A DNA stretch of 64,000 bases from assembly GCF_018336935.1 (NCBI RefSeq), contig NZ_CP068771.1, forward strand, positions 4,712,001-4,776,000, read 5' to 3'. The notes under the pieces are model-generated. The model saw only the letters and a list, made by a program, of their open reading frames with translations. It was not told the origin of the DNA and did no database searches. Every line of letters begins with the position of its first letter. Within the stretch, counting starts at the first letter, position 1. Positions 51,282 through 64,000 of the stretch are shown in pieces. Source of the stretch: Serratia plymuthica. Lineage in GTDB: Bacteria; Pseudomonadota; Gammaproteobacteria; Enterobacterales; Enterobacteriaceae. Made by a program: the position numbers and the translations under genes.

Positions 51282-52859
51282 ATGACAAATAATATCCATA
51301 AGCATCGCATCCTTATTCTGGATTTTGGTTCGCAATACACCCAACTGGTAGCACGCCGCGTGCGCGAAATCGGCGTTTACTGTGAGCTGTGGGCCTGGGA
51401 CGTTAGCGAAGAGCAAATCCGCGAATTCAATCCAAGCGGCATCATCCTTTCCGGCGGCCCGGAGAGCACCACCGAACATAACAGCCCGCGTGCGCCAGAG
51501 TACGTGTTCACCGCAGGTGTACCGGTACTGGGCGTATGCTACGGCATGCAGACCATGGCGATGCAGCTGGGCGGCCATGTGCAGGGTTCCAACGAGCGCG
51601 AGTTCGGCTATGCGCAGGTGGAAGTGACCACCGACAGCGCGCTGGTTCGCGGCATCGAAGACGCCCTCAGTTCTGCCGGCAAACCGCTGCTGGACGTGTG
51701 GATGAGCCACGGCGACAAAGTGACCGCCATTCCTTCGGACTTCGTGACCGTCGCCAGCACCGATACCTGCCCGTTCGCCATTATGGCCAACGAAGAAAAA
51801 CGCTTCTACGGCGTGCAGTTCCACCCGGAAGTGACCCACACCCGTCAGGGCCAGCGCATGCTGGAGCGTTTCGTGCTGGATATCTGCCAGTGTGAAGCCC
51901 TGTGGACGCCTGCGACCATCATTGAAGATGCGGTTGAGCGTATCCGCGAGCAAGTGGGCGAAGATCACGTGATCCTCGGCCTGTCCGGCGGCGTGGATTC
52001 TTCCGTTACCGCCATGCTGCTGCACCGCGCCATCGGCAAACGCCTGACCTGCGTGTTCGTCGACAACGGCCTGCTGCGCCTGAACGAAGCCGACCAGGTG
52101 CTGGAAATGTTCGGCGACCACTTCGGCCTGAACATCGTGCACGTCGCGGCGGAAAACCGCTTCCTGAGCGCGCTGGCCGGCGTTGACGAACCTGAAGCCA
52201 AGCGCAAGATCATCGGCCGCGTCTTCGTTGAAGTGTTCGACGAAGAAGCCTGCAAGCAAGACGCAGTGAAATGGCTGGCGCAAGGCACCATCTATCCGGA
52301 CGTGATCGAATCCGCCGCTTCCGCCACCGGCAAAGCGCACGTGATCAAGTCGCACCACAACGTGGGCGGCCTGCCGAAAGAGATGAAGCTGGGCCTGGTC
52401 GAGCCGCTGAAAGAGCTGTTCAAAGACGAAGTGCGCAAAATCGGTCTGGAGTTGGGCCTGCCGTACGACATGCTCTACCGCCACCCGTTCCCGGGGCCAG
52501 GTCTGGGCGTGCGCGTGCTGGGCGAAGTGAAGAAAGAGTACTGCGACTTGCTGCGCCGTGCCGACGCCATCTTCATCGAAGAGCTGCATAAAGCCGACCT
52601 GTACAACAAGGTCAGCCAGGCGTTCACCGTATTCCTGCCGGTGCGTTCGGTCGGCGTGATGGGCGACGGCCGTAAATACGACTGGGTTGTTTCACTGCGC
52701 GCAGTGGAAACCATCGACTTTATGACCGCGCATTGGGCGCACCTGCCGTACGATTTCCTCGGCCGCGTCTCCAACCGCATCATCAACGAAGTGGACGGCA
52801 TTTCCCGCGTAGTTTACGACATCAGCGGCAAGCCACCGGCTACGATTGAGTGGGAATGA
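51282..52859 (+). CDS. guaA: GMP synthase (glutamine-hydrolysing)
   Basis: 525 residues. N-terminal glutamine amidotransferase with Cys86 in GVCYGMQ, then the ATP pyrophosphatase loop SGGVDSS and dimerisation domain. The C-terminus PPATIEWE is intact although a mobile element starts just after it, so insertion restored the reading frame. XMP to GMP. Confidence 0.99.
52835..52859. other. Probable left attachment site (attL) in the guaA 3' end
   Basis: The end of guaA is a known integration hotspot. The integrase gene begins 306 bases downstream and the composition shifts to AT-rich directly after the guaA terminator. The exact core is unknown. No second copy of the GATTGAGTGGGAATGA stretch was found in the remaining 11 kb, so the right end must lie outside the window. 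Confidence 0.5.
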
Positions 52860-52906
52860 TTTCGCGTCTGGCAACAGCCTGCACGTAAAAGCAGTAAAGT
52901 ACCTCT

Positions 52907-52938
52907 AAGCCCGCGTAACTGCGGGCTTTTTTGTTTTT
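52907..52938 (+). terminator. guaBA terminator
   Basis: AAGCCCGC-GTAACT-GCGGGCTT followed by TTTTGTTTTT. Confidence 0.9.
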
Positions 52939-52939
52939 G

Positions 52940-53165
52940 TATCTGGCACTTTCTGGCAGCTGTTAGCAACGGGAAGCACGGTTTTTTCAATGGAATTTTT
53001 GATGGTACTCTCTGGTTTCGAATTCAGGTTTGAAAAAGTACCATGTGATAAATTTCGGTTGAGTTATGGTATTTATTTTTTATAACTCAATTAAAAACAG
53101 ATAGTTAAACAACTTTTCTGAATTTTTTACAACATGGTATTTTTGATAAAGGAAAACAATAAAAC
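52940..53165. promoter_or_regulatory. Integrase upstream region with repeated ATGGTA motifs
   Basis: AT-rich, non-coding. ATGGTA occurs at 53002, 53066 and 53134 and inverted (GTACCAT) at 53038-53044, with similar T-rich flanks. The spacing and mixed orientation recall integrase arm-type sites. An additional dyad GAGTTAT...ATAACTC spans 53061-53088. The integrase ribosome site AAAGGAAAA lies at about 53149. Confidence 0.45.
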
Positions 53166-54356
53166 ATGTTGACTGACACCAGGCTGCGTCACCTTAAGCC
53201 GAAGGAGAAACTCTATAAAGTTAATGACCGTGATGGTCTGTATGTTGCGGTCACTCCGGCTGGAACTATTTCATTTCGTTATAACTATTCAATAAACGGA
53301 AGACAGGAGACCGTTACTTTTGGCCGCTATGGTGTTGGAGGGATCACGCTTGCAGAAGCGCGTGAACGGCTCAATGAAGCTAAAAAAATGGTTGCCAGTG
53401 GAAGATCGCCTGCGAGGGAAAAAGCTAGAGATAAAGCTCGTATCAAAGATGCGGAGACTTTTGGTGCATGGGCTGAGAAATGGTTACGCGGTTATCAAAT
53501 GGCTGAATCGACGCGTGATATGCGGCGTTCGGTATATCAAAGGGAGTTGAAGTCAAAATTTGCGCAGCAGAAATTGACCGAGATTACACATGAAGACTTA
53601 CGCGCATTAACCGATAACATTGTCGAGAGAGGGGCACCGGCGACAGCTGTGCACGCCAGAGAGATTGTATTGCAAGTCTATCGCTGGGCTATTGAGCGCG
53701 GTCAGAAGGTTGAGAATCCCGCTGATCTGGTACGGCCTGCAAGCATAGCGAAATTTGAGCCTCGTGACAGGGCATTGACGCCAGTTGAAATTGGTCTGAT
53801 GTATCGGTACATGGAACGGGTAGGAACGACGCCATCAATCAGAGCAGCGGTTAAACTTTTGCTGTTAACGATGGTACGTAAAAGTGAGCTTACTAACGCA
53901 ACCTGGAACGAGATCAATTTTAGTGAGGCATTATGGACGATACCAAAGGAGAGGATGAAACGACGTAATCCACATTTGGTTTTTCTTTCCAGACAGGCAA
54001 TGGATATTATGATTGCTCTCAAAACCTTTGCCGGTAGCTCTGATTTTATCCTTCCTTCGCGGTACGATTCCGATGCGCCAATGAGTAGCGCTACTTTAAA
54101 CCGGGTTTTGACACTGACGTATCGTCTGGCTCAGAAAGAAGGGGAGTTGTTACCTAAGTTTGGTCCCCATGACTTACGGCGTACTGCCAGCACCTTGCTA
54201 CATGAGGCCGGGTACAATACTGACTGGATTGAGAAGTGCCTTGCCCATGAACAAAAGGGGGTACGAGCTGTTTATAACAAGGCTGAATATCGTGAGCAGA
54301 GGGCCGAGATGCTACAAGATTGGGCGAATATGATTGATGAATGGACTAGTAAGTAG
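53166..54356 (+). CDS. int: Tyrosine integrase (P4-like, guaA-type)
   Basis: 396 residues: an N-terminal DUF4102-type arm-binding domain (to about 85), a core-binding domain, and a catalytic domain with the first Arg in MVRKSEL, the HDLRRT box and the Tyr nucleophile in AVYNKAEY. All key residues are present, so it should be active. Its place next to guaA, facing away from it, is that of island integrases using guaA. Confidence 0.94.
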   Translation: MLTDTRLRHLKPKEKLYKVNDRDGLYVAVTPAGTISFRYNYSINGRQETVTFGRYGVGGITLAEARERLNEAKKMVASGRSPAREKARDKARIKDAETFGAWAEKWLRGYQMAESTRDMRRSVYQRELKSKFAQQKLTEITHEDLRALTDNIVERGAPATAVHAREIVLQVYRWAIERGQKVENPADLVRPASIAKFEPRDRALTPVEIGLMYRYMERVGTTPSIRAAVKLLLLTMVRKSELTNATWNEINFSEALWTIPKERMKRRNPHLVFLSRQAMDIMIALKTFAGSSDFILPSRYDSDAPMSSATLNRVLTLTYRLAQKEGELLPKFGPHDLRRTASTLLHEAGYNTDWIEKCLAHEQKGVRAVYNKAEYREQRAEMLQDWANMIDEWTSK

Positions 54357-54412
54357 TTAATAATCAGTAATTTAAGTGGATATACTTCTTTTATCTACGC
54401 CAGGAGAGCAAT

Positions 54413-54425
54413 TTTAGCCGCTAAA
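54413..54425. promoter_or_regulatory. IncP-1 KorB operator, copy A
   Basis: TTTAGCCGCTAAA exactly matches the KorB operator consensus of IncP-1 plasmids (TTTAGCSGCTAAA) and is extended to a 17-base dyad with ATT/AAT ends. It lies 55 bases upstream of the next gene, about 27 bases after a TATACT box. Confidence 0.8.
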
Positions 54426-54479
54426 ATTTACTGAATCTTTACTGGTTTTATCTGGATTGCATAAAAAGGAAAAATAAAA

Positions 54480-55109
54480 GTGCCTGAGTTGTCTGTAATT
54501 ATACAATGGATGAATCAATACCCTAAGACCGGCTGGCTATTGCTGTGTATCTATATTGCACTCGGTGTAGTTCGTCACAGAGTAATTAATGCTGAATCTG
54601 GAAGTGTATTTCGTGGACTACTCAATCTTAGGAAGCGCCGGCTAGAGCAAATGCTGACACAGCCATATTTGAATAAAAATTCGGTCCGTCTGGCAAAGCG
54701 TGAGCTTCGTCAGCGCAGCCTTTATCGGCTCACAGGCTTGTATAATTATCGGCTGCAGGATTTGGCTGTAATAATGTGTGATCGTTATGGGTTGCGGGCT
54801 GGTTATCTCAAGCCGTGGCGTAACTGGCTCGAAGAACGGGATGGACGGATTGTGTTCAACAGGAAATGGCATTGTTTTCGCTGGCGTCTTTTTCTGGTAG
54901 GTCAGATTGTAAACACAGTTCTACTAATATTATTCATTATGTATATAGTTTCTCATTCTTCGGCCGAAATGATCGCACCGCTTATGTTACTCTTCATGCT
55001 TGTATGGTGGTTTCCTTGGCTAATGATCACCTCGGTACCTACCCCTAGGTGGACTCGCGAAATGGAAGTCTATCTTGAGAAATTTAACGCTGAACAGACC
55101 ATGGTTTAA
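54480..55109 (+). CDS. Element-encoded membrane protein, unknown
   Basis: 209 residues starting with GTG after AAAAAGGAAAA. One N-terminal helix (about 16-32) and two helices near 135-180, with a basic cytoplasmic-type middle region (many Arg/Lys). No family recognised. It is the gene directly behind KorB operator A, so it may be expressed according to the presence of an IncP plasmid; a role in exclusion or interference would be speculation. Confidence 0.65.
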   Translation: MPELSVIIQWMNQYPKTGWLLLCIYIALGVVRHRVINAESGSVFRGLLNLRKRRLEQMLTQPYLNKNSVRLAKRELRQRSLYRLTGLYNYRLQDLAVIMCDRYGLRAGYLKPWRNWLEERDGRIVFNRKWHCFRWRLFLVGQIVNTVLLILFIMYIVSHSSAEMIAPLMLLFMLVWWFPWLMITSVPTPRWTREMEVYLEKFNAEQTMV

Positions 55110-55687
55110 ACTGTTCTTTGTTACCATGCATTCAGAGTGAATTGTCAGAGTTTTGGAAGATTCCATCCTACGAGTAATACTCACAAGGTAATTCACATAA
55201 TCAATAGGTTAAGTCATAAGCTTCTTGACCCTACATGAGAAGACGAATTTTAGCTGCTAAAAGTTTGGGCATATTTGGACTTAAATGCCACCGACATGAT
55301 TCTAATAATTAAGCCAGTACCTAATGAGCCAAGAGAAGACAACTGTAAACGCCCCTTGGCTTAGACTTGCTTTCAGGAAAGCGAATGCTTTTTATGGTCA
55401 GGGACAAGTGAGGGGATGAGCCATTGCATAACCATAAAACCAATTCGTTCTATGTCATTACAGATCGGCTTCAGTGATTTACTGGTGAGGTAGTATCACT
55501 GTGATCCGTTTTGCATAACGCTTACAGCTGCGCTACAAACAATAAACTATAATACTGTATTTTCAAAATCATCAATTTGAAGCAGAGTAATCGCGAAAAA
55601 CCACTCGTAAGTGGCTGGTTATAATTCAATAAAGTGGATGGTATTAAGACTTAAACTGCCACCATAATAGCTCGTGGATATACTATT
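55110..55687. other. 578-base region without a gene
   Basis: AT-rich. It contains a near-perfect KorB operator at 55249-55261 and two similar direct repeats, GACTTAAATGCCACC (55278) and GACTTAAACTGCCACC (55648). It separates the plus-strand membrane protein gene from the minus-strand unknown gene. No convincing open reading frame is visible, so it may be a regulatory stretch or a deletion scar. Confidence 0.5.
55249..55261. promoter_or_regulatory. KorB operator-like site, copy B (one mismatch)
   Basis: TTTAGCTGCTAAA differs from the IncP-1 KorB consensus only at the central base (T instead of G/C). Both half-sites are intact. Confidence 0.6.
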
Positions 55688-56659
55688 TTAAATATAAAAT
55701 TCTTTCCTCACAGACGCTAAGGCCTTGGACACAGCCTGCTTTGTCATAGTTGTGTAGTGATTTTTTTCTAAAACCTGTGCGGTTTCAAACTGGTTAAAAC
55801 CTTGGTGTTTTAATATGATTATTTTTTTCTTAGTATCAGTGAATTTGGAGTCAACCATTCGTCTGGCAATATTCCTAAGTTTATCTAGATCTGCTGGGGT
55901 TAAAGTTTGACCCTGCATCCACTCATGAAAATAGGTATCAATCAATATATCCCCTGTGTTTGCGTTAGCTTTATGCGGTTTAGCGCATTGCCGTCTAAGC
56001 CTTATTAATTCTTTATTGAACTGTTCGAGAGACCGCTTTCCTTGTCTGTATTTGGGATTCCATAGACCATTGGTGAGTTTGGGCCTATGGTCAGAACAAT
56101 ATCGATGACTAAGGACCTGTTTTTCATGAACGGGGAACTCATTATCGTTAGCAACAAATTCTGATATCTCACTGATCAACTTGGAAAATTCGGTTAGATT
56201 ACCGCAGAACTCGCAATAACCGAGCTTACGCTGTGAATTTATAGTTACTCCTTTTGCAGGAGAGGATTTCTTCGGCCGCTTGGATGCGCACTCACTGACT
56301 AATTCAATAAGAGACTCAATCGTAGCGGTAAAGCATTTATCAAGAGAAGTTTGTTGATCTAAAGTCAGAACGAAATTACGCAAAAGAAGTCTTTGTGCCT
56401 GTACTACGACGTTTAAGCCCACTTTTTTAAGTACATCACTAAATCCTAGATTTACTCCAGAAATGTAGTCTTTATGACTTGGTGGCAGGGAATTTACATA
56501 AGCAGCTACTGCTGGATCAATAACTTCCTGTATGAGACGCAGTATTGGATACCTCCGTGAAAATATGGAGTACGGATAACTACGCTCTACAAATAATTTA
56601 ATTGCAGCTGCAACTGTGAGGTCACAGCCTTCCCAGATAGTAATTTTCATGTCAACCAT
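55688..56659 (-). CDS. Unknown protein with Cys/His cluster and C-terminal HTH-like region
   Basis: About 323 residues from MVDMKITIWEG (ATG 56659; 56650 is an equal alternative, both with weak ribosome sites). The middle carries YCEFCG and, further on, HRYCSDHRP, a possible zinc site. The C-terminal 50 residues (KKIIILKHQGFNQFETAQVL, then TKQAVSKALASVRKEF) look like a helix-turn-helix. It faces the AlpA-like gene across a 77-base divergent promoter, the usual layout for a regulator of an excision module. No family recognised. Confidence 0.6.
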   Translation of the reverse strand: MVDMKITIWEGCDLTVAAAIKLFVERSYPYSIFSRRYPILRLIQEVIDPAVAAYVNSLPPSHKDYISGVNLGFSDVLKKVGLNVVVQAQRLLLRNFVLTLDQQTSLDKCFTATIESLIELVSECASKRPKKSSPAKGVTINSQRKLGYCEFCGNLTEFSKLISEISEFVANDNEFPVHEKQVLSHRYCSDHRPKLTNGLWNPKYRQGKRSLEQFNKELIRLRRQCAKPHKANANTGDILIDTYFHEWMQGQTLTPADLDKLRNIARRMVDSKFTDTKKKIIILKHQGFNQFETAQVLEKNHYTTMTKQAVSKALASVRKEFYI

Positions 56660-56736
56660 TTTAGCCAATGAATAGGTTTTAGCAAGTGGTAATGCTTGGC
56701 ATTGTATAGGCCTGATTGGAAACAGGAGGAAGGCAG

Positions 56737-56967
56737 ATGCAAACAAAGGCACATAGCACGCTCATTAACAGAAAAACACTTCTGGAAATGATCCCATTGT
56801 CAGCCCGCACTATTTATAACCTTGAACAGCGAGGCGAGTTTCCTCGCCGTATAGCACTTACTAGCCGAAATGTTGCATGGCAGTTATCCGAAGTAGAACA
56901 GTGGATTGCGGATCGTAAATCAGCAATGTTTAAAGCGGCCAGACCCGGTGTTGTTTTAGGTAGGTAA
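56737..56967 (+). CDS. AlpA-family excisionase/regulator
   Basis: 76 residues with a MerR-like winged helix (LLEMIPLSARTIYNLEQRG, then FPRRIALTSRNVAWQLSEVE), typical of AlpA proteins that activate integrase or act as recombination directionality factors in P4-like islands. ATG 56737 has AGGAGG at the right distance. repA starts five bases after its stop. Confidence 0.85.
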   Translation: MQTKAHSTLINRKTLLEMIPLSARTIYNLEQRGEFPRRIALTSRNVAWQLSEVEQWIADRKSAMFKAARPGVVLGR

Positions 56968-56972
56968 CAGCA

Positions 56973-57830
56973 ATGTCATTGAACATAATGGAAGCATTTG
57001 AAGCTAAGCCACAACCAATTGATTACGTCTTGCCTAATTTGGCTATTGGTACTATCGGAGCGATTGTTTCTCCGGGAGGTGCTGGAAAGTCAATGCTGGC
57101 ATTACAATTGGCTGTGCAGATTACTTGTGGTGTAGATCTTTTAAACTTTGGTGAATATCCGACTGGGTTGGTGGCATATTTACCTGTGGAGGACTCTGAA
57201 ACCATCGTTCACCATCGTTTATATGCTTTGGGAAAATATCTAACAGCACGTCAGCAGCAGATTGTAGCTGATAAGCTACTGGTCGAACCTTTGGTAGGGA
57301 AGTGTCCAAATATTTTCTTGCCGGATTGGAGCAACTTGATCAATGAAGTTTCAAAAGGTAGACGTTTAATAATTTTGGATACTCTTCGCCGTTTCCACCA
57401 GGAGGATGAGAATAATAGCGCAGCAATGTCCAAAGTCATTGGAAAGCTAGAAGGTATTGCTGCTGATACTGGATGTTCGATTATATTTCTACACCATTCA
57501 AACAAAGGCGCTGCCACGATGGGGGTTGGTGATATACAGCAGGCAAGCAGGGGTAGTAGCGTCCTGGTTGATAATATACGGTGGCAATCTTATCTGGCGG
57601 GCATGACCGCCTTGGAAGCGAAGACGTATGGTATTTCTGATGATGTTCGAGGTCAATTTGTTAGATTTGGAATAAATAAAGTAAATTATGGAGAACGTGC
57701 GCCAGATCGTTGGTTACAGAGACATGAGGGGGGAGTATTAAAAATAACGGCGCTCAGCTCGAAGAATAATAAAAAGCTTACTAAAGAAAGAACATCTACC
57801 TGGAGTGGTGCTGACAATGACAACTGGTAA
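56973..57830 (+). CDS. repA: RepA-type replicative helicase (IncQ-like)
   Basis: 285 residues, RecA-like ATPase with Walker A SPGGAGKSM (about 33-41) and Walker B RLIILDT, and the SIIFLHHSNKG segment. This matches hexameric RepA helicases of IncQ plasmids such as RSF1010. It overlaps the next gene by 14 bases, the repA-repC arrangement. An integrated element with its own helicase and initiator could replicate after excision. Confidence 0.87.
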   Translation: MSLNIMEAFEAKPQPIDYVLPNLAIGTIGAIVSPGGAGKSMLALQLAVQITCGVDLLNFGEYPTGLVAYLPVEDSETIVHHRLYALGKYLTARQQQIVADKLLVEPLVGKCPNIFLPDWSNLINEVSKGRRLIILDTLRRFHQEDENNSAAMSKVIGKLEGIAADTGCSIIFLHHSNKGAATMGVGDIQQASRGSSVLVDNIRWQSYLAGMTALEAKTYGISDDVRGQFVRFGINKVNYGERAPDRWLQRHEGGVLKITALSSKNNKKLTKERTSTWSGADNDNW

Positions 57831-58599
57831 TAAAGTGGCACCCACAAGTACAGCTTGGCAAGCCCGAGTAATTCTGTACCAGCCAAGCCAGCGTCCTAAG
57901 GAGGTGAAGGGACAATGGATGGAGACTAGTTTTGGTCGTTGTCGTGTTACCGGACGGCTCGGACAGCGTCATGCCGATATCGTAGAGACAATATTATATG
58001 TTGCCGAGCAACGTCGTGAAATTTCTGATGGTGGAATCGAATTATTAGTAGATCCAGCGAAAGTACGCCGAACGCTATCCGATGCACAATACAGTTATGG
58101 TCGTATACAGAAATTGCTTTTAGATCTGCGCGTCGCAACAGTTGAAATTATAACGCCAGAGCTGGAGAAAAGCGGCGACTGTATAATAGGGGGACTGATC
58201 GATCATGTAGTGCCATCACCTATGACGCGTCCAGATCCTTTGACTGGGGGAGAACGCCGTTTATGGCGTGTCCGTCTGGGTGTTGCATTAGCGATGTTAC
58301 TCAAAAAAGATTTGCCATTTTATTATCATCCTGGCCCCATAGCTCGGCTACAACATGGTATTAGCCAGGCAGTCGCTCGTCATGTCTTAACCCATAGGAA
58401 TAATCCTTTAGGAGGGTGGTATATGGATACGTTGATATTAGCAGTGTGCGGTGAAGGAACGAGTAATATGACTTTACGTAACTATCGTCGGAGATTGAAA
58501 GAAGATTCCGTGCAATTGCTGGAAATTGGAATTGATTTGAACGGTTCTAGGATAAAACGTGTCACAACGGCCCGATATTGTGTCACAACGGCCCGATAG
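57817..58599 (+). CDS. repC: RepC-type replication initiator (IncQ-like)
   Basis: 260 residues from MTTGNKVAPTSTAWQ; winged-helix initiator resembling IncQ RepC (segments GRLGQRHADIVETI and WRVRLGVALAMLL). In IncQ plasmids RepC binds oriV iterons and loads RepA. Here the last residues (VTTARYCVTTAR) are themselves encoded by the first two iterons. The start at 57817 is chosen over 57805 for the typical overlap; both are in frame. Confidence 0.83.
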   Translation: MTTGNKVAPTSTAWQARVILYQPSQRPKEVKGQWMETSFGRCRVTGRLGQRHADIVETILYVAEQRREISDGGIELLVDPAKVRRTLSDAQYSYGRIQKLLLDLRVATVEIITPELEKSGDCIIGGLIDHVVPSPMTRPDPLTGGERRLWRVRLGVALAMLLKKDLPFYYHPGPIARLQHGISQAVARHVLTHRNNPLGGWYMDTLILAVCGEGTSNMTLRNYRRRLKEDSVQLLEIGIDLNGSRIKRVTTARYCVTTAR

Positions 58600-58642
58600 C
58601 GTGTTATAGCGGCCCGGTAGCGTGCTACAGCGGCCCGATTTT
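58559..58642. repeat. Four 21-bp iterons: probable oriV
   Basis: Four tandem copies with an exact 21-base period start at 58559, 58580, 58601 and 58622. The first two share GTGTCACAACGGCCCGAT; all four share CGGCCCG at the same place. The array crosses the repC stop codon and is followed by a T-rich stretch and more dyads. By analogy with IncQ this is the RepC-binding origin. Confidence 0.85.
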
Positions 58643-58852
58643 TTACTATTCAGCAGTATTTACAGGATCGTTCAGGAACTACAGTCTTTGAAATCACCTG
58701 CCTGAGCAGGCGCTTTCAAATCTAGAATCGGCCAAAGGCCGATTGTTGTACGCCAGAAGAAGAGATTACTTACTCGTTTGGTATATTGACACTTGAGGTA
58801 GGTTTTATGACATATGAGGTACGCCCCTAGCTTTAGGCATAGGGAGGAAGAT

Positions 58853-58865
58853 TTTAGCCGCTAAA
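58853..58865. promoter_or_regulatory. IncP-1 KorB operator, copy C
   Basis: TTTAGCCGCTAAA, exact consensus, within the same ATT...AAT 17-base dyad as copy A. About 65 bases after a TTGACA box and about 270 bases before oriT. Confidence 0.8.
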
Positions 58866-59130
58866 ATCTGCAATGCACATGCTTTGACAATGTAAGTAAA
58901 AAAGTGCATGAGAAAATAAAAGATTTCTTACAATATATCGAAACATAAATACAGTTGGTGGACGCCCATTTATAACTACTAAAGGTCATTTTCAAAAGGG
59001 AGAAATATAGTTTCCTTGCAAGAAACACATTTGCTGCAGATCTTTACCCGAGTAATCCTATATTAATACGCTAAGAAAACACATCCTGTACACTGAAATA
59101 CACATTGATGTGCACAGATATACTACGGCA

Positions 59131-59200
59131 ACAGGAGGGCAGGACATGTAAAGTAGGCCCACCGCTACGGTGTTCCAACTTTACCACTCCCTATTCGCCG
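59131..59200. other. RP4/IncP-type origin of transfer (oriT)
   Basis: In the orientation leading into traJ, the order GCAGGA ... AGTAGGCCCACC ... GGTGTTCC ... CCCTATTCGC reproduces the reverse complement of RP4 oriT. The TraJ-binding inverted repeat has arms GTAAAGT (59148-59154) and ACTTTAC (59178-59184) around ACCG-CTA-CGGT. The nic motif on the minus strand is GTCCTG|CCC, placing the nick between 59139 and 59140; RP4 has ATCCTG|CCC. The orientation relative to traJ is also as in RP4. Confidence 0.87.
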
Positions 59201-59264
59201 CATCGCGGCTCAAGGGCGTCCTGCTCTGCGAGGCTGCCAGGCTACCGCCTGTATGGAGAGCTAT

Positions 59265-59618
59265 ATGAAAGTTACTCAGACTAGAAAAAATAGTACGCCA
59301 ATAAAAGTTTATTGTTTACCCGAAGAAAAAATTCTCATCCAAGAAAATGCAGAAGCATCTGGATTAAGTGTTGCCTGTTTTGTTCGTAGAGTTGCAATGG
59401 GTTATCAGGTTGATTCTATCGTAGATATAAAACAGGTTAATGAACTTAGCCGAGTAAATGCTGATCTTGGAAGACTTGGCGGATTACTTAAATTATGGCT
59501 CGCAAATGATCCTCGAACAGTTGATTTTTCACCCACACTGATAAGAACCTTGCTTGCGAAAATAGAATCAACTCGCCAAGAACTAAGGAACATTATGGAT
59601 AAAATCTTGGATAAATAA
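59265..59618 (+). CDS. traJ: Relaxosome protein TraJ (RP4 type)
   Basis: 117 residues. Very like RP4 TraJ: PIKVYCLPEEK near the start (ribbon-helix-helix-type DNA binding) and DLGRLGGLLKLWLANDPRT in the middle. TraJ binds the oriT inverted repeat and recruits the relaxase TraI. ATG 59265 has GGAGAG upstream; 59253 is an in-frame alternative. In RP4 the relaxase gene follows traJ; here it does not. Confidence 0.93.
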   Translation: MKVTQTRKNSTPIKVYCLPEEKILIQENAEASGLSVACFVRRVAMGYQVDSIVDIKQVNELSRVNADLGRLGGLLKLWLANDPRTVDFSPTLIRTLLAKIESTRQELRNIMDKILDK

Positions 59619-59642
59619 ATGTGTGGTTTCCTATATACCTGC

Positions 59643-59656
59643 GTCTGTTAACAGAC
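59643..59656. promoter_or_regulatory. 14-base perfect palindrome before trbJ
   Basis: GTCTGTTAACAGAC, located 44 bases upstream of the trbJ start in the traJ-trbJ gap. Possibly an operator of a second regulator, or simply a hairpin. Confidence 0.45.
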
Positions 59657-59699
59657 AGTGTGTTAAATATTACTGAACTGATGAAAAATAGGTGAGCAA

Positions 59700-60494
59700 A
59701 TGGATTTAATTTTCCAAGTGGTTTCATTACAAAGAGGGATTTTAGCCGCTAAAAAAGGTTTAATAGTTCCTTTCGTGGCGTCCGTCATGGCATTACCGGT
59801 GAAGGCCGGAATTCCCGTTATTGATGGCACTAATGTGGTTCAGACCACAATCAGCGCAGTTAACAACGTTCAGGCTGTGGCTAAACAAATCCAGCAGTAC
59901 CAGACGCAGCTGCAGCAGTATGAAAACATGCTGCAGAACACCGTAGCACCTGCGGCCTATATCTGGGACCAGGCAAATTCAACAATTAATAAATTGTTGC
60001 AGGTGCAGGATACCCTTAATTACTACAAGAATCAGGCCGGGAGTCTCGATGCGTACCTGAAACGATATCAGGATGTTAACTACTACAGGTCATCACCTTG
60101 CTTTAACAGCAATGTTGAATGTACCTCGTCTGAAATTAGCGCATTGCGTGAAGCTGAACAGAACAGTTCAGGGGCACGTAAAAAGGCCAATGACGCGCTA
60201 TTTAAGGTAATTGACGAACAGCAGAACACCCTGCAGAGCGATGCTGATAACCTTGCAGATTTGCAAACTCAGGCAACCGGCTCACAAGGGCAAATGGAAG
60301 CTATTCAGGCCGCTACCCAGCTTGCCAGTGCACAGACAAACCAGTTACTGCAAATCCGCTCGCTTCTGGTAGCTCAACAAAACGCTGCGGCAACACTGGC
60401 ACAGGCTCAGGCCGATAAAGAAGCCCAACAAATAGCTGCTGATGAGAAAGTATTAGCTGGACAGAACACACCAAGCCCGAAGCGAATTTGGTGA
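59700..60494 (+). CDS. trbJ: P-type mating-pair protein TrbJ (VirB5-like)
   Basis: 264 residues. Signal-peptide-like region (KKGLIVPFVASVMALPVKA) then the TrbJ hallmark GIPVIDGTN and a long Gln-rich helical body. TrbJ is a VirB5-type exported protein of the P-type T4SS. Start 59700 is supported by AGGTGAG; it gives an unusual 18-residue pre-signal extension, and codons 14-18 lie inside KorB operator D. No trbB-I genes precede it. Confidence 0.85.
   Translation: MDLIFQVVSLQRGILAAKKGLIVPFVASVMALPVKAGIPVIDGTNVVQTTISAVNNVQAVAKQIQQYQTQLQQYENMLQNTVAPAAYIWDQANSTINKLLQVQDTLNYYKNQAGSLDAYLKRYQDVNYYRSSPCFNSNVECTSSEISALREAEQNSSGARKKANDALFKVIDEQQNTLQSDADNLADLQTQATGSQGQMEAIQAATQLASAQTNQLLQIRSLLVAQQNAAATLAQAQADKEAQQIAADEKVLAGQNTPSPKRIW
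59741..59753. promoter_or_regulatory. IncP-1 KorB operator, copy D, inside the trbJ start
   Basis: TTTAGCCGCTAAA, exact consensus, overlapping the first codons of trbJ (encoding the ILAAKK part). In RP4 KorB represses trb promoters, so a KorB site at the head of this trb cassette is a striking parallel. Confidence 0.8.
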
Positions 60495-60505
60495 GGAACA
60501 ACTGA

Positions 60506-60679
60506 ATGAAAAATACAATTATGATGGTTTTTATTCTAATCATTTCAATGATTATATGTTCTTGCGAAAAAAACGATAACGTTTGCTCATCGACGCCAGA
60601 TAATAAATTTGATGCACATAGATCCGATAAGTGTGCATTGCGTAGTAATAACAATCCAAGCCCTAAACGAGAATGGTAA
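60506..60679 (+). CDS. trbK: Small lipoprotein TrbK-like, entry exclusion
   Basis: 57 residues, MKNTIMMVFILIISMIICSC then a hydrophilic Cys-containing tail. Lipobox-like ICSC (Cys20). Its size, lipoprotein nature and place between trbJ and trbL are those of RP4 TrbK, the entry-exclusion lipoprotein acting in the recipient. Sequence similarity is not claimed. Its end, NNPSPKREW, nearly repeats the TrbJ end NTPSPKRIW. Confidence 0.7.
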   Translation: MKNTIMMVFILIISMIICSCEKNDNVCSSTPDNKFDAHRSDKCALRSNNNPSPKREW

Positions 60680-60681
60680 TC

Positions 60682-62073
60682 ATGAAAATAGTAAGTAAGC
60701 TCACCTTTTTAGGTATCATCCTTTTCTTTTCTATAAATGCCTATGCTGGTCAATTAGATAGTAGCGGGCTACTTGATATTTTATTAGATAAGTTTCAACA
60801 AGTAGCCAGTACATGGACAACAGTAATTGCTGACTATGCAAATTGGCTCTTCTGGGGGCTGGTATTAATAAGTATGGTTTGGACATTTGGTATGATGGCG
60901 ATGCAAGGGGAAGGGTTGACAGGCGTACTTGCTGAAATAGTTCGCTTTTTTGCCGTCGTTGGTTTTTTTTATTATCTTTTAATCAACGGCCCATCCATAT
61001 CGCAATCCATAATTAATTCAATGAGACAACTTGCAGCAAACGCGTTAGGAATAAGTACTGGTATTTCTCCATCAAGCATAGTTGATATGGCGTTTGCGAT
61101 ATTAACAAAGGTCAGTTCAGCCGCATCAATTTGGTCGCCAATGATATCCACCATTATGATAACAGTCGCGATAATCGTTTTGGTAGTGATGTCCCTTATA
61201 GCGATAAATATGCTAATCATGTTGGTTTCTGCATGGGTGTTATGCTATGCCGGAGTTATATTACTTGGGTTTGGTGGTTCGAAATGGACCTCTGATATAG
61301 CAATTAATTACTTACGAACTGTTTTATCGATTGGCATTCAATTATTCACGATGACATTAATTATTGGGGTTGGACAATCATTTATAGATCAATATTTTTC
61401 TCTTATTAAAGATGATGTTCCTGATCTTAATAGTCTTATCGTTTTGCTTCTGGCGTCAATTATCCTGTTAGTATTAACGAATAAGCTACCACTGTTGTTA
61501 TCAGGTGTTGTAGGAGGGGCTTCTTTACAAGGGATTGGTGGATTTGGGGCGGGTATGATTACCGGCGCAGCCACTACTGCCATCAGCGGTGCTGGAGCAA
61601 TGGCAATGGGGGCATCAGCTCAAGCCAGCGGTGGAGCCTCTGCATTAAAGGCAGCGTTCGAGTCTGCGCAAGCTGCCATGGCCGAAGAATCTGGTTCAGG
61701 CGGTGGAGGCGGTTCCGGTGGCGGATTTGGCGGCGGGGAAGATACCGGTTCCGTAGATACTTCTGGCGGCCAACCCTCAGGCGATTCCGGTGGTTCGTCT
61801 GCTGGGAGCTGTTCAGGTAGCGCCAGAGGAGGAAGTCAGGGGTTTGCTTCATTCTCACGAGCTGGCCGCATGGCAAGCCATATGGGAAGCAGTATGGCTA
61901 ACGGAACTGCTGAATACCAGACAATGAAGCGAAGTAGCGATGCTTCTCGTGTCCAACGGACAATTGGAGGGGAGTTGGCGACTCAGATACGTAAACAAAC
62001 AGCTACTCGTCGGGATAACCTCGACCATGATGATTTTGCCGGAGATAGCTTATCCGGCAATAATAATTCTTGA
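60682..62073 (+). CDS. trbL: P-type conjugation membrane protein TrbL (VirB6-like)
   Basis: 463 residues. Signal peptide (to about AYAG), five to six membrane helices up to about residue 290, then a Gly/Ser-rich tail (EESGSGGGGGSGGGFGGG) typical of TrbL. Inner-membrane channel subunit of the P-type T4SS. ATG 60682 is preferred for the clean signal sequence; 60673 overlaps the trbK stop and is possible. The gene order trbJ-trbK-trbL is that of RP4, but trbM onwards is missing. Confidence 0.88.
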   Translation: MKIVSKLTFLGIILFFSINAYAGQLDSSGLLDILLDKFQQVASTWTTVIADYANWLFWGLVLISMVWTFGMMAMQGEGLTGVLAEIVRFFAVVGFFYYLLINGPSISQSIINSMRQLAANALGISTGISPSSIVDMAFAILTKVSSAASIWSPMISTIMITVAIIVLVVMSLIAINMLIMLVSAWVLCYAGVILLGFGGSKWTSDIAINYLRTVLSIGIQLFTMTLIIGVGQSFIDQYFSLIKDDVPDLNSLIVLLLASIILLVLTNKLPLLLSGVVGGASLQGIGGFGAGMITGAATTAISGAGAMAMGASAQASGGASALKAAFESAQAAMAEESGSGGGGGSGGGFGGGEDTGSVDTSGGQPSGDSGGSSAGSCSGSARGGSQGFASFSRAGRMASHMGSSMANGTAEYQTMKRSSDASRVQRTIGGELATQIRKQTATRRDNLDHDDFAGDSLSGNNNS

Positions 62074-62155
62074 ATCAAGCGCATCAGTTTACGGGGGAGC
62101 GCGAGCTGACGCTTCCACTGAGCGAACTTTACTTCTGCAACTCAAAGGAAAAACT

Positions 62156-62581
62156 ATGTCCAAGACTTCCGATTCACGGTTACGCAATGAGGGCTTTCGT
62201 AAAGCAGAGGCTTCCCTGAGACTTGAAGGAAGGGACCCCAGTGGTACGCCACTGTACGAGTCCATTAAGGCACGTATTATTTCAGGTGAGCTGACGTATG
62301 AGCAGGGGCGTTCAGAGATTCTTGCATACTACACAAAAGCAGATACTGACGGGCCTGTGACAGTGGGAGAGATGCTGGTAGAGGAATTTTTAAAACCGCT
62401 GAACATGTCTCATGATGAACTGGCGGAAGCTATGGGTATTTGCAAACAGGATGTTGACGATATTATCTGCGGTTTGCGTCGTGTTACGGATGATGAGGCT
62501 CGCGTTCTTGCTACCATATTTGGTACCGATGTGGATTTTTGGAGCAACCTGCAGGAAATGCAATACAATCAAGAGAAATGA
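62156..62581 (+). CDS. Antitoxin with VbhA-like N-terminus and HigA-like HTH
   Basis: 141 residues from ATG 62156 (AAAGGAA upstream). Residues about 10-60 (AEASLRLEG and IISGELTYEQGRSEIL) resemble the VbhA-type antitoxin domain that inhibits Fic toxins; residues about 65-141 (VGEMLVEEFLKPLNMSHDEL, then FGTDVDFWSNLQ) are a HigA-type helix-turn-helix. No toxin gene is visible on either side. It could autoregulate, neutralise toxins carried by an incoming plasmid, or be a remnant. Confidence 0.72.
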   Translation: MSKTSDSRLRNEGFRKAEASLRLEGRDPSGTPLYESIKARIISGELTYEQGRSEILAYYTKADTDGPVTVGEMLVEEFLKPLNMSHDELAEAMGICKQDVDDIICGLRRVTDDEARVLATIFGTDVDFWSNLQEMQYNQEK

Positions 62582-62797
62582 TGTAAGGTATCGAGTCGCA
62601 ATTACCTTAAACCTCAACTTTTCAGAAGCAGATTTTACTTTTTCTAGTGTTTTTTCTGAACGCCACCTAGATCGAGACAAAACCGCTGGTCTGCAAATAA
62701 TCTTCAAGCATTTTAGTGACGAAGCTGCTTTTTTTAAAAAATGTATCGATTAGTCTCTAGGGTAGGGCACGATCCATATGCCCCCTGTCGCGATGAC
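62582..62797. other. Antitoxin-ATPase spacer with a coding-like remnant
   Basis: Frame 3 of this stretch stays open to a TAG at 62753 and reads RYRVAITLNLNFSEADFTF and on to FFKKCID. The composition looks protein-like, but the only start codons lie inside the antitoxin gene in another frame. It may be the broken end of a lost gene, for example a toxin. No family recognised. Confidence 0.3.
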
Positions 62798-64000
62798 TCA
62801 ATCCGCGGCGACTAAAGCTTCCTTAGCCAAGCGTTGCATGTTCAATGAGCGGGTGTTCAGACCGGCCTTGGCGAACCGGTAGCGCATATAAGCGGAGATA
62901 TCACTCTCGTGCGAGGAAACGATCAACTGGCGATTGCTGAACTCACAGCGAAGAAGGTCAGTCAAAGAGGCGATATTCACCTCATCAAGCGACTGGGACG
63001 GGTCATCGATCAGAATCAGTGGTACGTTTGAGTAAACCCGATTCAGGGAAAGAAAAAAACCTAGACTGAGCGCAGATACTTGGCCGGAGCTCATTGATAG
63101 AATCGCATCATACTCGGATTTTTCGGCTGTAAGGAACCTGAGTTCTTTGCCATCCTTGCTTTCAATGAACAGACCTAAACCACGCTGATAGTTTTGGATA
63201 AGCCGTCCGCTATATATATGGAAAATCAGTTCAATTTCAGCAATTGTTTGTTCTGAGTAGTTGCGTTCTGTTTTCTCAAGAGTAGCCTTTAGGTTATTGA
63301 CTTTTTCTTTAGCTATCTGTGCTGCTTTAGTTTCATTCTTAATGATCTCTAGCTCATTAAGGCATTGTCTGAGCCTTTTGCTTTGTGCCTCGTTTGCTTT
63401 AGCTGAGATATACAGTTCTTTGTCTTTCAACAACTGAGGTTCAACAATATAGAAGTCCTGCAGCTCTTTAAAGACAGCCATGATGACCTTTCTCCAATCT
63501 TGGGGCAAAGGTTCTGTCTCAGCTGTTTTCTGGCTTCTGATGAAAGCTGTAAGAGACTGAATTCTCGTGTCCACCTCCTCCTCATTTTCGGAGAACGAAT
63601 AGTTTAGTTCTACACCTAAAGTTTGAAAGTTGGAGACGAGTTGGTTAATAGTAGGCAACCGAGCTTTATCGCGGAGCAGTGCGTTGTGTAAGACGCTGTT
63701 GTAGTTCACGGATAGCTGCGCTTTCAGACTCTTAAGTTGAGCATCAATTATGGCCAGCTCTGTAGCCATTATTCCTATAAGAGTTAACAGAGTCTGGCCA
63801 TCAGCGTTTAATGCGTCATTGATTTGCTTTGATCGGTATTCAATCTTTTGCAGCATAGTGTCATGGGATTGCCAGTCTGCACCACACAGCGGACAATCCT
63901 GAGCGTCAGGAAAGAGTTTAGTATGCTCAGTAACTAGTTCTGCTTTTAAACGATTCAACTCGGTTGCAGCGTTGGTATTAGAGTTGCTCTTTTCTTGAAG
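62798..64000 (-). CDS. SMC/RecF-like ATPase, C-terminal part (cut by window edge)
   Basis: The frame is open to the right edge, so this is the last 400 residues or so of a larger protein. It has a zinc-hook-like CPLCG with coiled-coil regions around it, the ABC signature LSMSSGQVSALSLGFFLSLN, Walker B LILIDDPSQSLDE and an H-loop IVSSHESD. This is the C-terminal half of an SMC/Rad50-like ATPase. Proteins of this build are common in anti-phage or anti-plasmid loci (for example Lamassu LmuB, Wadjet JetC), but the specific system cannot be named without the missing part and its neighbours. Confidence 0.7.
   Translation of the reverse strand, partial: LQEKSNSNTNAATELNRLKAELVTEHTKLFPDAQDCPLCGADWQSHDTMLQKIEYRSKQINDALNADGQTLLTLIGIMATELAIIDAQLKSLKAQLSVNYNSVLHNALLRDKARLPTINQLVSNFQTLGVELNYSFSENEEEVDTRIQSLTAFIRSQKTAETEPLPQDWRKVIMAVFKELQDFYIVEPQLLKDKELYISAKANEAQSKRLRQCLNELEIIKNETKAAQIAKEKVNNLKATLEKTERNYSEQTIAEIELIFHIYSGRLIQNYQRGLGLFIESKDGKELRFLTAEKSEYDAILSMSSGQVSALSLGFFLSLNRVYSNVPLILIDDPSQSLDEVNIASLTDLLRCEFSNRQLIVSSHESDISAYMRYRFAKAGLNTRSLNMQRLAKEALVAAD

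Follow-up and report, generated by a model that had tools for sequence, protein, structure and literature searches.

At the 3′ end of guaA, the chromosome of Serratia plymuthica (NZ_CP068771.1, a single 5.46-Mb contig) carries a genomic island that joins an integrase to transfer genes of the IncP type. We analyzed a 64-kb stretch of this chromosome (the window; chromosomal positions 4712001–4776000), in which the island lies to the right of guaA; coordinates are those of the window and features lie on the + strand unless marked otherwise. A preliminary description had interpreted the element as a satellite exploiting IncP-1 plasmids and had followed it to 64000, the last base of the window. 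Because att cores GAGTGGGA occur at 52848..52855 (attL, at the guaA 3′ end) and outside the window at 71456–71463 (attR), the complete island spans 52848 to 71463 (18.6 kb) and runs 7.5 kb beyond the window end. We infer its right end from the att core and five Escherichia coli relatives (L012, L013, L014, L044, L045; loci compared carry L numbers), which have one common flank after the right core. Within this flank is a stretch that looks like a terminator and is similar to the one following guaA in relatives without the island; the flank fits integration at the guaA end. The complete island contains an integrase, a replication module, an IncP-type origin of transfer (oriT), TraJ, TrbJ, a TrbK-like protein and TrbL.

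Domains were called by Pfam cut-offs, families by NCBIfam equivalog cut-offs and defence genes by PADLOC. The integrase, AlpA, an AAA_25 ATPase (RepA), a NikA/TraJ-like protein and TrbL scored above Pfam cut-offs, and TraJ, TrbJ, TrbL and HigA passed those of NCBIfam. The tyrosine integrase gene int (53166..54356; Pfam, tblastn) precedes orf209 (54480..55109), which has no family match. No homologue of orf209 was found in the related island L014, where a gene for an EexN-family entry-exclusion lipoprotein (L014:17445-17678) adjoins int, besides that island's trbJ and trbL. Divergent from alpA lies orf354 (55688..56659, − strand), encoding a conserved island protein of 323 aa with a RefSeq-type start and no Pfam or NCBIfam match, whose homologues in relatives are annotated as hypothetical proteins or transcriptional regulators. 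The AlpA-family regulator is encoded at 56737..56967 (PF05930; RefSeq-type start by comparison with a relative). The integrase and AlpA regulator of the preliminary description were thus recovered, and its IncQ-like repAC module with iterons stood in part. RepA (56973..57830), a RepA-family helicase by the annotation of relatives, and the repeats were found; RepC (57805..58599), a putative iteron-binding initiator with no Pfam or NCBIfam match, is assigned by its position and the repeats. It is 67% identical to RepC of the relative L076. The gene overlaps and precedes direct repeats with 21-bp spacing (58558..58639; three overlapping 40-nt copies listed), a putative oriV that we read as about four iterons.

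The transfer region follows. The oriT (59137..59250), consisting of the nic core GGGCAGGACATG and an inverted repeat, aligns with IncP oriTs, and its core is identical to those of two IncP plasmid loci (L071, L084). The adjacent traJ (59265..59618; longer start at 59253) encodes an IncP oriT-binding protein scoring 160.2 bits against NF010451 (cut-off 134), in agreement with the RP4-type oriT and TraJ reported earlier. Next come trbJ (59700..60494), encoding a VirB5-type subunit of a type IV secretion system (T4SS) (NF010452; 86% identical to TrbJ of an E. coli IncP plasmid), and, beyond a small trbK-like gene, trbL (60682..62073), encoding a VirB6-type subunit (PF04610, TIGR02783; 56% identical to E. 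coli IncP plasmid TrbL). Of the TrbJ-K-L set named in the preliminary description, TrbJ and TrbL are therefore secured by family cut-offs. The TrbK-like protein (60506..60679) is a lipoprotein of 57 aa whose gene occupies the entry-exclusion position, between trbJ and trbL. It has no Pfam or NCBIfam TrbK match and is assigned by position and lipobox; its lipobox reads CSC, and its tail, SPKREW, resembles the SPEKKW tail of IncP TrbK. Conservation across this region is uneven. Matched pieces in the trbJ–trbL span (~10% of a 9.6-kb query) had ~86% DNA identity to IncP plasmids, and trbJ and trbL were the only island genes to match a 42-kb IncP stretch (L015). Between island and plasmid TrbL, one 40-column window towards the C-terminus has 35/40 identical positions and four membrane-region windows have 16–24/40. 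The TrbK-like protein agrees with its L012 counterpart at 39/57 residues, and TrbJ of the same pair is 92% identical.

Four exact KorB operators TTTAGCNGCTAAA occur in the island, at 54413, 55249, 58853 and 59741, against 0.0026 expected; shuffles of the window gave a mean of 0.09 sites with one mismatch allowed. Operator A (54413..54425) lies between int and orf209, 67 bp before the latter, operator B (55249..55261) has T as its centre base, and operator C (58853..58865) lies upstream of oriT. B and C are hundreds of bases away from the nearest downstream gene start. Operator D (59741..59753) is situated 41 bp into trbJ, inside its signal-peptide codons (LAAK). The IncP-1 KorB operators of the preliminary description are hence all present, far above shuffled and chance expectation, with the qualification that the site at 59741 falls within the trbJ reading frame. 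The whole 5.46-Mb genome has six exact sites, four of them inside the island, versus two for the reversed motif. The only host motif outside the guaA region (G000, chromosomal position 4489074; L008) lies in an apparent fimbrial gene cluster and is probably due to chance.

The genome search proposed in the preliminary description, for islands with KorB operators and trb genes, yielded 62 sites in 189 kb of sequence surrounding the trbJ genes of 21 related loci, which by their relatedness are not independent; this count excludes the partial or duplicate loci L013, L037, L040, L047, L069, L080, L083, L101, L107 and L074. Each of the 119 other half-site-permuted palindromes occurred 0 times in the same sequences, and this scrambled-palindrome control rejects chance as the origin of the motif. 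Ten of 12 congeneric guaA flanks (169.7 kb) served as a further control and contained no site; among these ten, L029 contains a distant element with a relaxase. The two excluded flanks (L027, L028) each contain one KorB operator beside a left end resembling that of an element, and no matching integrase within 20 kb. Outside trbJ, 41 sites were found in 19 of the 21 loci. Most sites recur in set slots, which lie behind int, close to where orf354 ends, ahead of oriT and within trbJ; the surrounding flanks have diverged from one island lineage to another. In some relatives with a relaxase (L072, L076), sites stand upstream of alpA instead. L039 and L046 have a tandem pair of operators ahead of oriT, spaced 15 bp.

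The slot in the trbJ signal-peptide codons is common to islands and IncP plasmids. We examined it blind to the motif through TrbJ searches of 369 genomes of the class and 246 of the family, which returned 13 places besides the window, some already known from other searches. The operator was present in all five minimal islands (L069, L070, L101, L107, L108) and both IncP-type operons (L111 and L102, the latter with a KorB-like protein only 32% identical), and in none of six other trb operons (L103–L106, L109, L110). The guaA island of L029, with its own distant relaxase and a TrbJ of 24–25% identity, contains no KorB operator. Codons under the operator are frozen (TTA, GCC or GCG, GCT, AAA) across 11 TrbJ representatives of 44–92% identity, picked by the motif from 25 and including one plasmid. 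Among their 73 invariant residues, the other single-codon ones are the tryptophan and one glutamate.

Searches of the complete island for the remaining conjugation genes were empty. With IncP TraI, TraG (the type IV coupling protein), TrbE, TrbB, TrbG, TrbI, KorB and IncC as tblastn queries, nothing was found at E ≤ 1e-3, and the same queries detected such genes in plasmid and integrative and conjugative element (ICE)-like loci. TraI and two relaxases of related islands produced chance-level pieces of 24–40 residues (best E 0.066); TraI matches the relaxase-bearing relatives L072, L075, L076 and L077 at 45–46% identity (E < 1e-140). Pfam detected no relaxase domain among the predicted proteins of the island. 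The earlier statement that relaxase, coupling protein, VirB4-type ATPase and other T4SS genes are missing therefore extends to the right half of the island, in which tblastn and Pfam found no relaxase through 71463. The preliminary description had named a conjugation gene set or relaxase beyond 64 kb as the mark of a self-transmissible ICE, and neither was found in the complete island. We reject that assignment, since the complete island has no IncP-related T4SS ATPase, relaxase or coupling protein, and no full Trb operon with a VirB4-type ATPase as in P-type ICEs. A remnant of an IncP plasmid that fused with the chromosome is unlikely, as KorB, IncC, TraI, TraG and TrbB/E/G/I are missing and int, att and rep are present.

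Site-specific integrase and att sites, together with the lack of a relaxase, a coupling protein and a complete T4SS, place the island among relaxase-less integrative mobilizable elements (IMEs). Because an IncP-type oriT with TraJ, TrbJ/TrbL and KorB operators are present, and relaxase, coupling protein and T4SS ATPase were not found, the island would depend on an IncP-type helper. Its anatomy fits a helper-dependent satellite of IncP plasmids, which supports this part of the preliminary description; the general idea is not new. GIsul2 (Tn6591) is reported to occupy the same site, the guaA 3′ end, with the same GAGTGGGA core (PMC9376610). Its integrase (87% identity), AlpA (79%), RepA (62%), TrbJ (53%) and TrbL (45%) are homologous to those of the island, AlpA, RepA, TrbJ and TrbL occurring in the same order, and it has an IncP-type oriT (an oriT in the GIsul2 backbone is noted in PMC8239412), TrbK and a KorB operator within trbJ. 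It differs in having one KorB operator rather than four, ars/sul2 rather than Lamassu cargo, a RepC without detectable similarity to that of the island (E 5.7), and a 62-aa 'stabilization' protein with no TraJ seen. The 'stabilization' protein was rejected as a TraJ homologue for want of similarity.

In Guedon 2017 (PMC5704250), GIsul2, which has TrbJ, TrbK and TrbL, is counted among the IMEs that lack a relaxase, and both IncP helpers and retrotransfer are proposed for it. The helper proposal is repeated in PMC9376610, which reports GIsul2 excision by nested PCR and mentions an earlier study that failed to detect excision from an IncC plasmid. Hochhauser 2023 (PMC10121019) took VirB5 and VirB6 as markers to look for IMEs without a relaxase in the defence islands of E. 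coli; these elements resemble the present island in both markers and in their defence cargo, and oriT, KorB operators and helper assignment are not among the features described in the sections consulted. Contrary to the preliminary description, which knew of no such element, the general idea was thus in print for GIsul2 and a related search had been made. The IncP islands of PMC5704250 share with ours the guaA site and RepA (Brucella suis) or TraJ, TrbJ, TrbL and a TrbK-like protein (Burkholderia glumae), and differ in their own MobP relaxase, none being found here. The relatives L072, L075, L076 and L077 look like such IncP islands, with a TraI-like relaxase between traJ and trbJ. The kind of element is known from GIsul2, and the layer of KorB operators in the present island looks new among the literature matches listed: within these, a scope that leaves out subscription papers and preprints, KorB operators in such islands are not mentioned.

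KorB is the ParB protein of IncP-1 plasmids, and on this ground the operators would bring the island into the partition and regulation network of its helper. We consider it quite likely that the island is a relaxase-less IME of the GIsul2 kind, specialized on IncP-1 plasmids. With an IncP-1 plasmid in the cell, the island would excise and replicate from its iterons; helper TraI and island TraJ would nick the island oriT, and helper TraG and Trb proteins would move the island. Island TrbJ and TrbL would replace the helper subunits, allowing the channel to escape the IncP TrbK exclusion of the recipient, and the TrbK-like protein would add an exclusion of the island's own. The divergence of the TrbK-like protein and TrbL fits an exchange of subunits that may be targets of exclusion; we infer this step, since a donor partner of IncP TrbK has never been identified according to PMC8923210. 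Helper KorB would load on the island operators, so that the free island is partitioned by, and titrates, the helper's IncC-KorB system, and the island trb genes would be tied to the helper KorB level.

This scheme has a counterpart in SGI1 and its IncC plasmid helper, compared here by published descriptions. On paper, SGI1 likewise has no relaxase, replacement T4SS subunits, its own replication and helper partition sites. Two functional copies resembling IncC parS are reported to stabilize SGI1 and to help expel the plasmid (PMC10954446), and helper-triggered SGI1 replication is described as driving incompatibility (PMC7433901). SGI1 differs in its att site (trmE in PMC8409611, guaA here), T4SS type and helper, and the activator AcaCD turns it on (PMC7433901), whereas in the island only a ParB/repressor site was seen, no search aimed at AcaCD sites having been made. 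Most likely, the island joins the partition and regulation network of its helper in the manner of the SGI1 parS mimics. We think that partition is the likelier main role of the KorB sites, given here a replication module and several such sites, and that both roles may act. More tentatively, and slightly short of an even chance in our judgement, the island may represent a second, independently evolved satellite that steals helper segregation, with operators acting as centromeres, IncP-1 plasmids destabilized and oriT alleles matched. If the KorB sites work in this way, partition hijacking would be convergent (SGI1 with IncC plasmids, these islands with IncP plasmids) and may be a general rule, and a widespread family of defence islands would be carried and partitioned by IncP-1 plasmids while destabilizing them. 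IncP-1 plasmids are models of broad-host-range transfer, and the islands could shape how long they persist.

Matching of oriT alleles is suggested by the inverted repeats. Those of five islands match different IncP plasmids at 89–100% (L045 with L071, 100%; L044 with L086, 92%; L041 and L043 with L086, 89%; L070 with L084, 92%), which suggests that the islands have repeatedly exchanged alleles with helper lineages or have tracked them. In L046, the repeat is L071-like (80%) and TraJ is closest to that of L071 (76%).

The preliminary description had viewed the KorB operators as transcription switches, through which helper KorB reports the presence of the plasmid and sets island expression; we regard this as possible, on balance doubtful. 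The positions of operators A and D next to the starts of orf209 and trbJ favour it, and a promoter-like match (54357–54386, + strand) ending 27 bp before operator A keeps regulation open. KorB is, moreover, both a repressor and a CTP-dependent sliding clamp on RK2, silencing at a distance when locked by KorA, as described in PMC11790492. Single promoter-like matches mean little, however, since a consensus scan of the region gave 29 versus 21.3 (standard deviation 4.3) in shuffles, and operators B and C are remote from gene starts. A search of the island for the KorA operator found none, and KorB represses where a satellite would presumably need an activating signal. That KorB is sensed by the island is accordingly not established, and partition hijacking fits at least as well. 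Alternatively, captured IncP DNA (oriT–traJ, trbJKL) may have brought the operators into what is now a defence island moving rarely and by other routes, an explanation that we consider unlikely. The occurrence of the trbJ operator in IncP plasmids agrees with such a remnant, as do decayed copies: traJ of L045 has an internal stop and is marked interrupted by RefSeq, and L046, L047 and E. coli HS have insertion sequences within the module or next to it. A passive origin accounts poorly for the 41 operators outside trbJ, for the match of the L015 IncP stretch to trbJ and trbL only, and for the open traJ, trbJ and trbL of the window, which pass family cut-offs. The module also recurs with other integrases or at other sites: away from guaA, traJ–trbJ was found next to tRNA-Ser in E. 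coli A65EC, where the integrase is a different one, and at two additional places. It seems equally improbable that TrbJKL serve mainly to guard the host against incoming IncP plasmids and not to transfer the island. Such parasite exclusion would suit a TrbK-like protein more divergent than its neighbours, the EexN lipoprotein of L014, and islands that outnumber IncP plasmids in E. coli without co-occurring with them; it leaves the joint retention of oriT, TraJ and replication genes unexplained.

Several observations count against the partition-hijacking satellite that we favour. The missing KorA operator is one, and IncP capture could have left the trb genes, operator included, as passive remnants. 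GIsul2 keeps only the trbJ operator, as does L077, and a KorB-like gene lies near two of the six trb operons without an operator (L103, L104). The oriT repeat of the window island is just 79% like that of the closest plasmid (L086), and the TraJ allele may not follow the oriT allele, L045 combining an L071 repeat with an interrupted traJ of the L006 type. IncP TraI and KorB had no match in the host genome, an empty answer obtained there without a positive control. Finally, island and plasmid are not enriched in the same cells: at most one of 5,426 complete E. coli genomes had both, versus ~3.2 expected. This shortfall would fit mutual loss as for SGI1, the difference from chance being small, and the counts do not support a stable partnership of island and plasmid.

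Among these E. coli genomes, the left 9.6 kb of the island was at least 80% covered at one place in 30 and gave any match in 309. oriT–traJ was found in 299 (242 chromosomal and 66 plasmid places), trbJ in 331 (332 records; 275 chromosomal and 66 plasmid places) and IncP korB in 68. By places, the trbJ module is therefore ~4x commoner than IncP plasmids (275 vs 66). A few chromosomal matches are laboratory strains with integrated RP4, among them MFDpir and S17-1 (korB) and ST18 (trbJ). Beyond E. coli, TraJ relatives with adjoining TrbJ and TrbL were found at seven loci in Dickeya, Citrobacter, Erwinia, Enterobacter, Phytobacter and Buttiauxella.

Downstream of the transfer genes, the window holds a gene for a HigA-family antitoxin (62156..62581; TIGR02607, no Pfam match) and the start of the cargo (62798..64000, − strand), where LmuB continues to 65137. 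Outside the window follow LmuC, LmuA and a large helicase, to 71213. PADLOC identifies LmuA, LmuB and LmuC as a Lamassu system, Pfam as ABC-3C, and many of the related islands examined bear phage-defence genes. L043, L046 and L047 have the traJ–trbJ module, together with HigA and KorB sites, at locations other than guaA, and the neighbouring cargo is different (restriction-modification, helicase and glycosyltransferase genes). To the right of the island, the host differs from its relatives: because the backbone common to two island-free relatives resumes only at ~87.2 kb, ~15.8 kb of additional foreign DNA follows attR (71464 to about 87240 in window numbering; loci L006, L007). Two further copies of the element's left-end terminator motif lie there, at 74713 and 84719, one of them accompanied by a KorB site of its own (74794), and look like remnants of other guaA elements.

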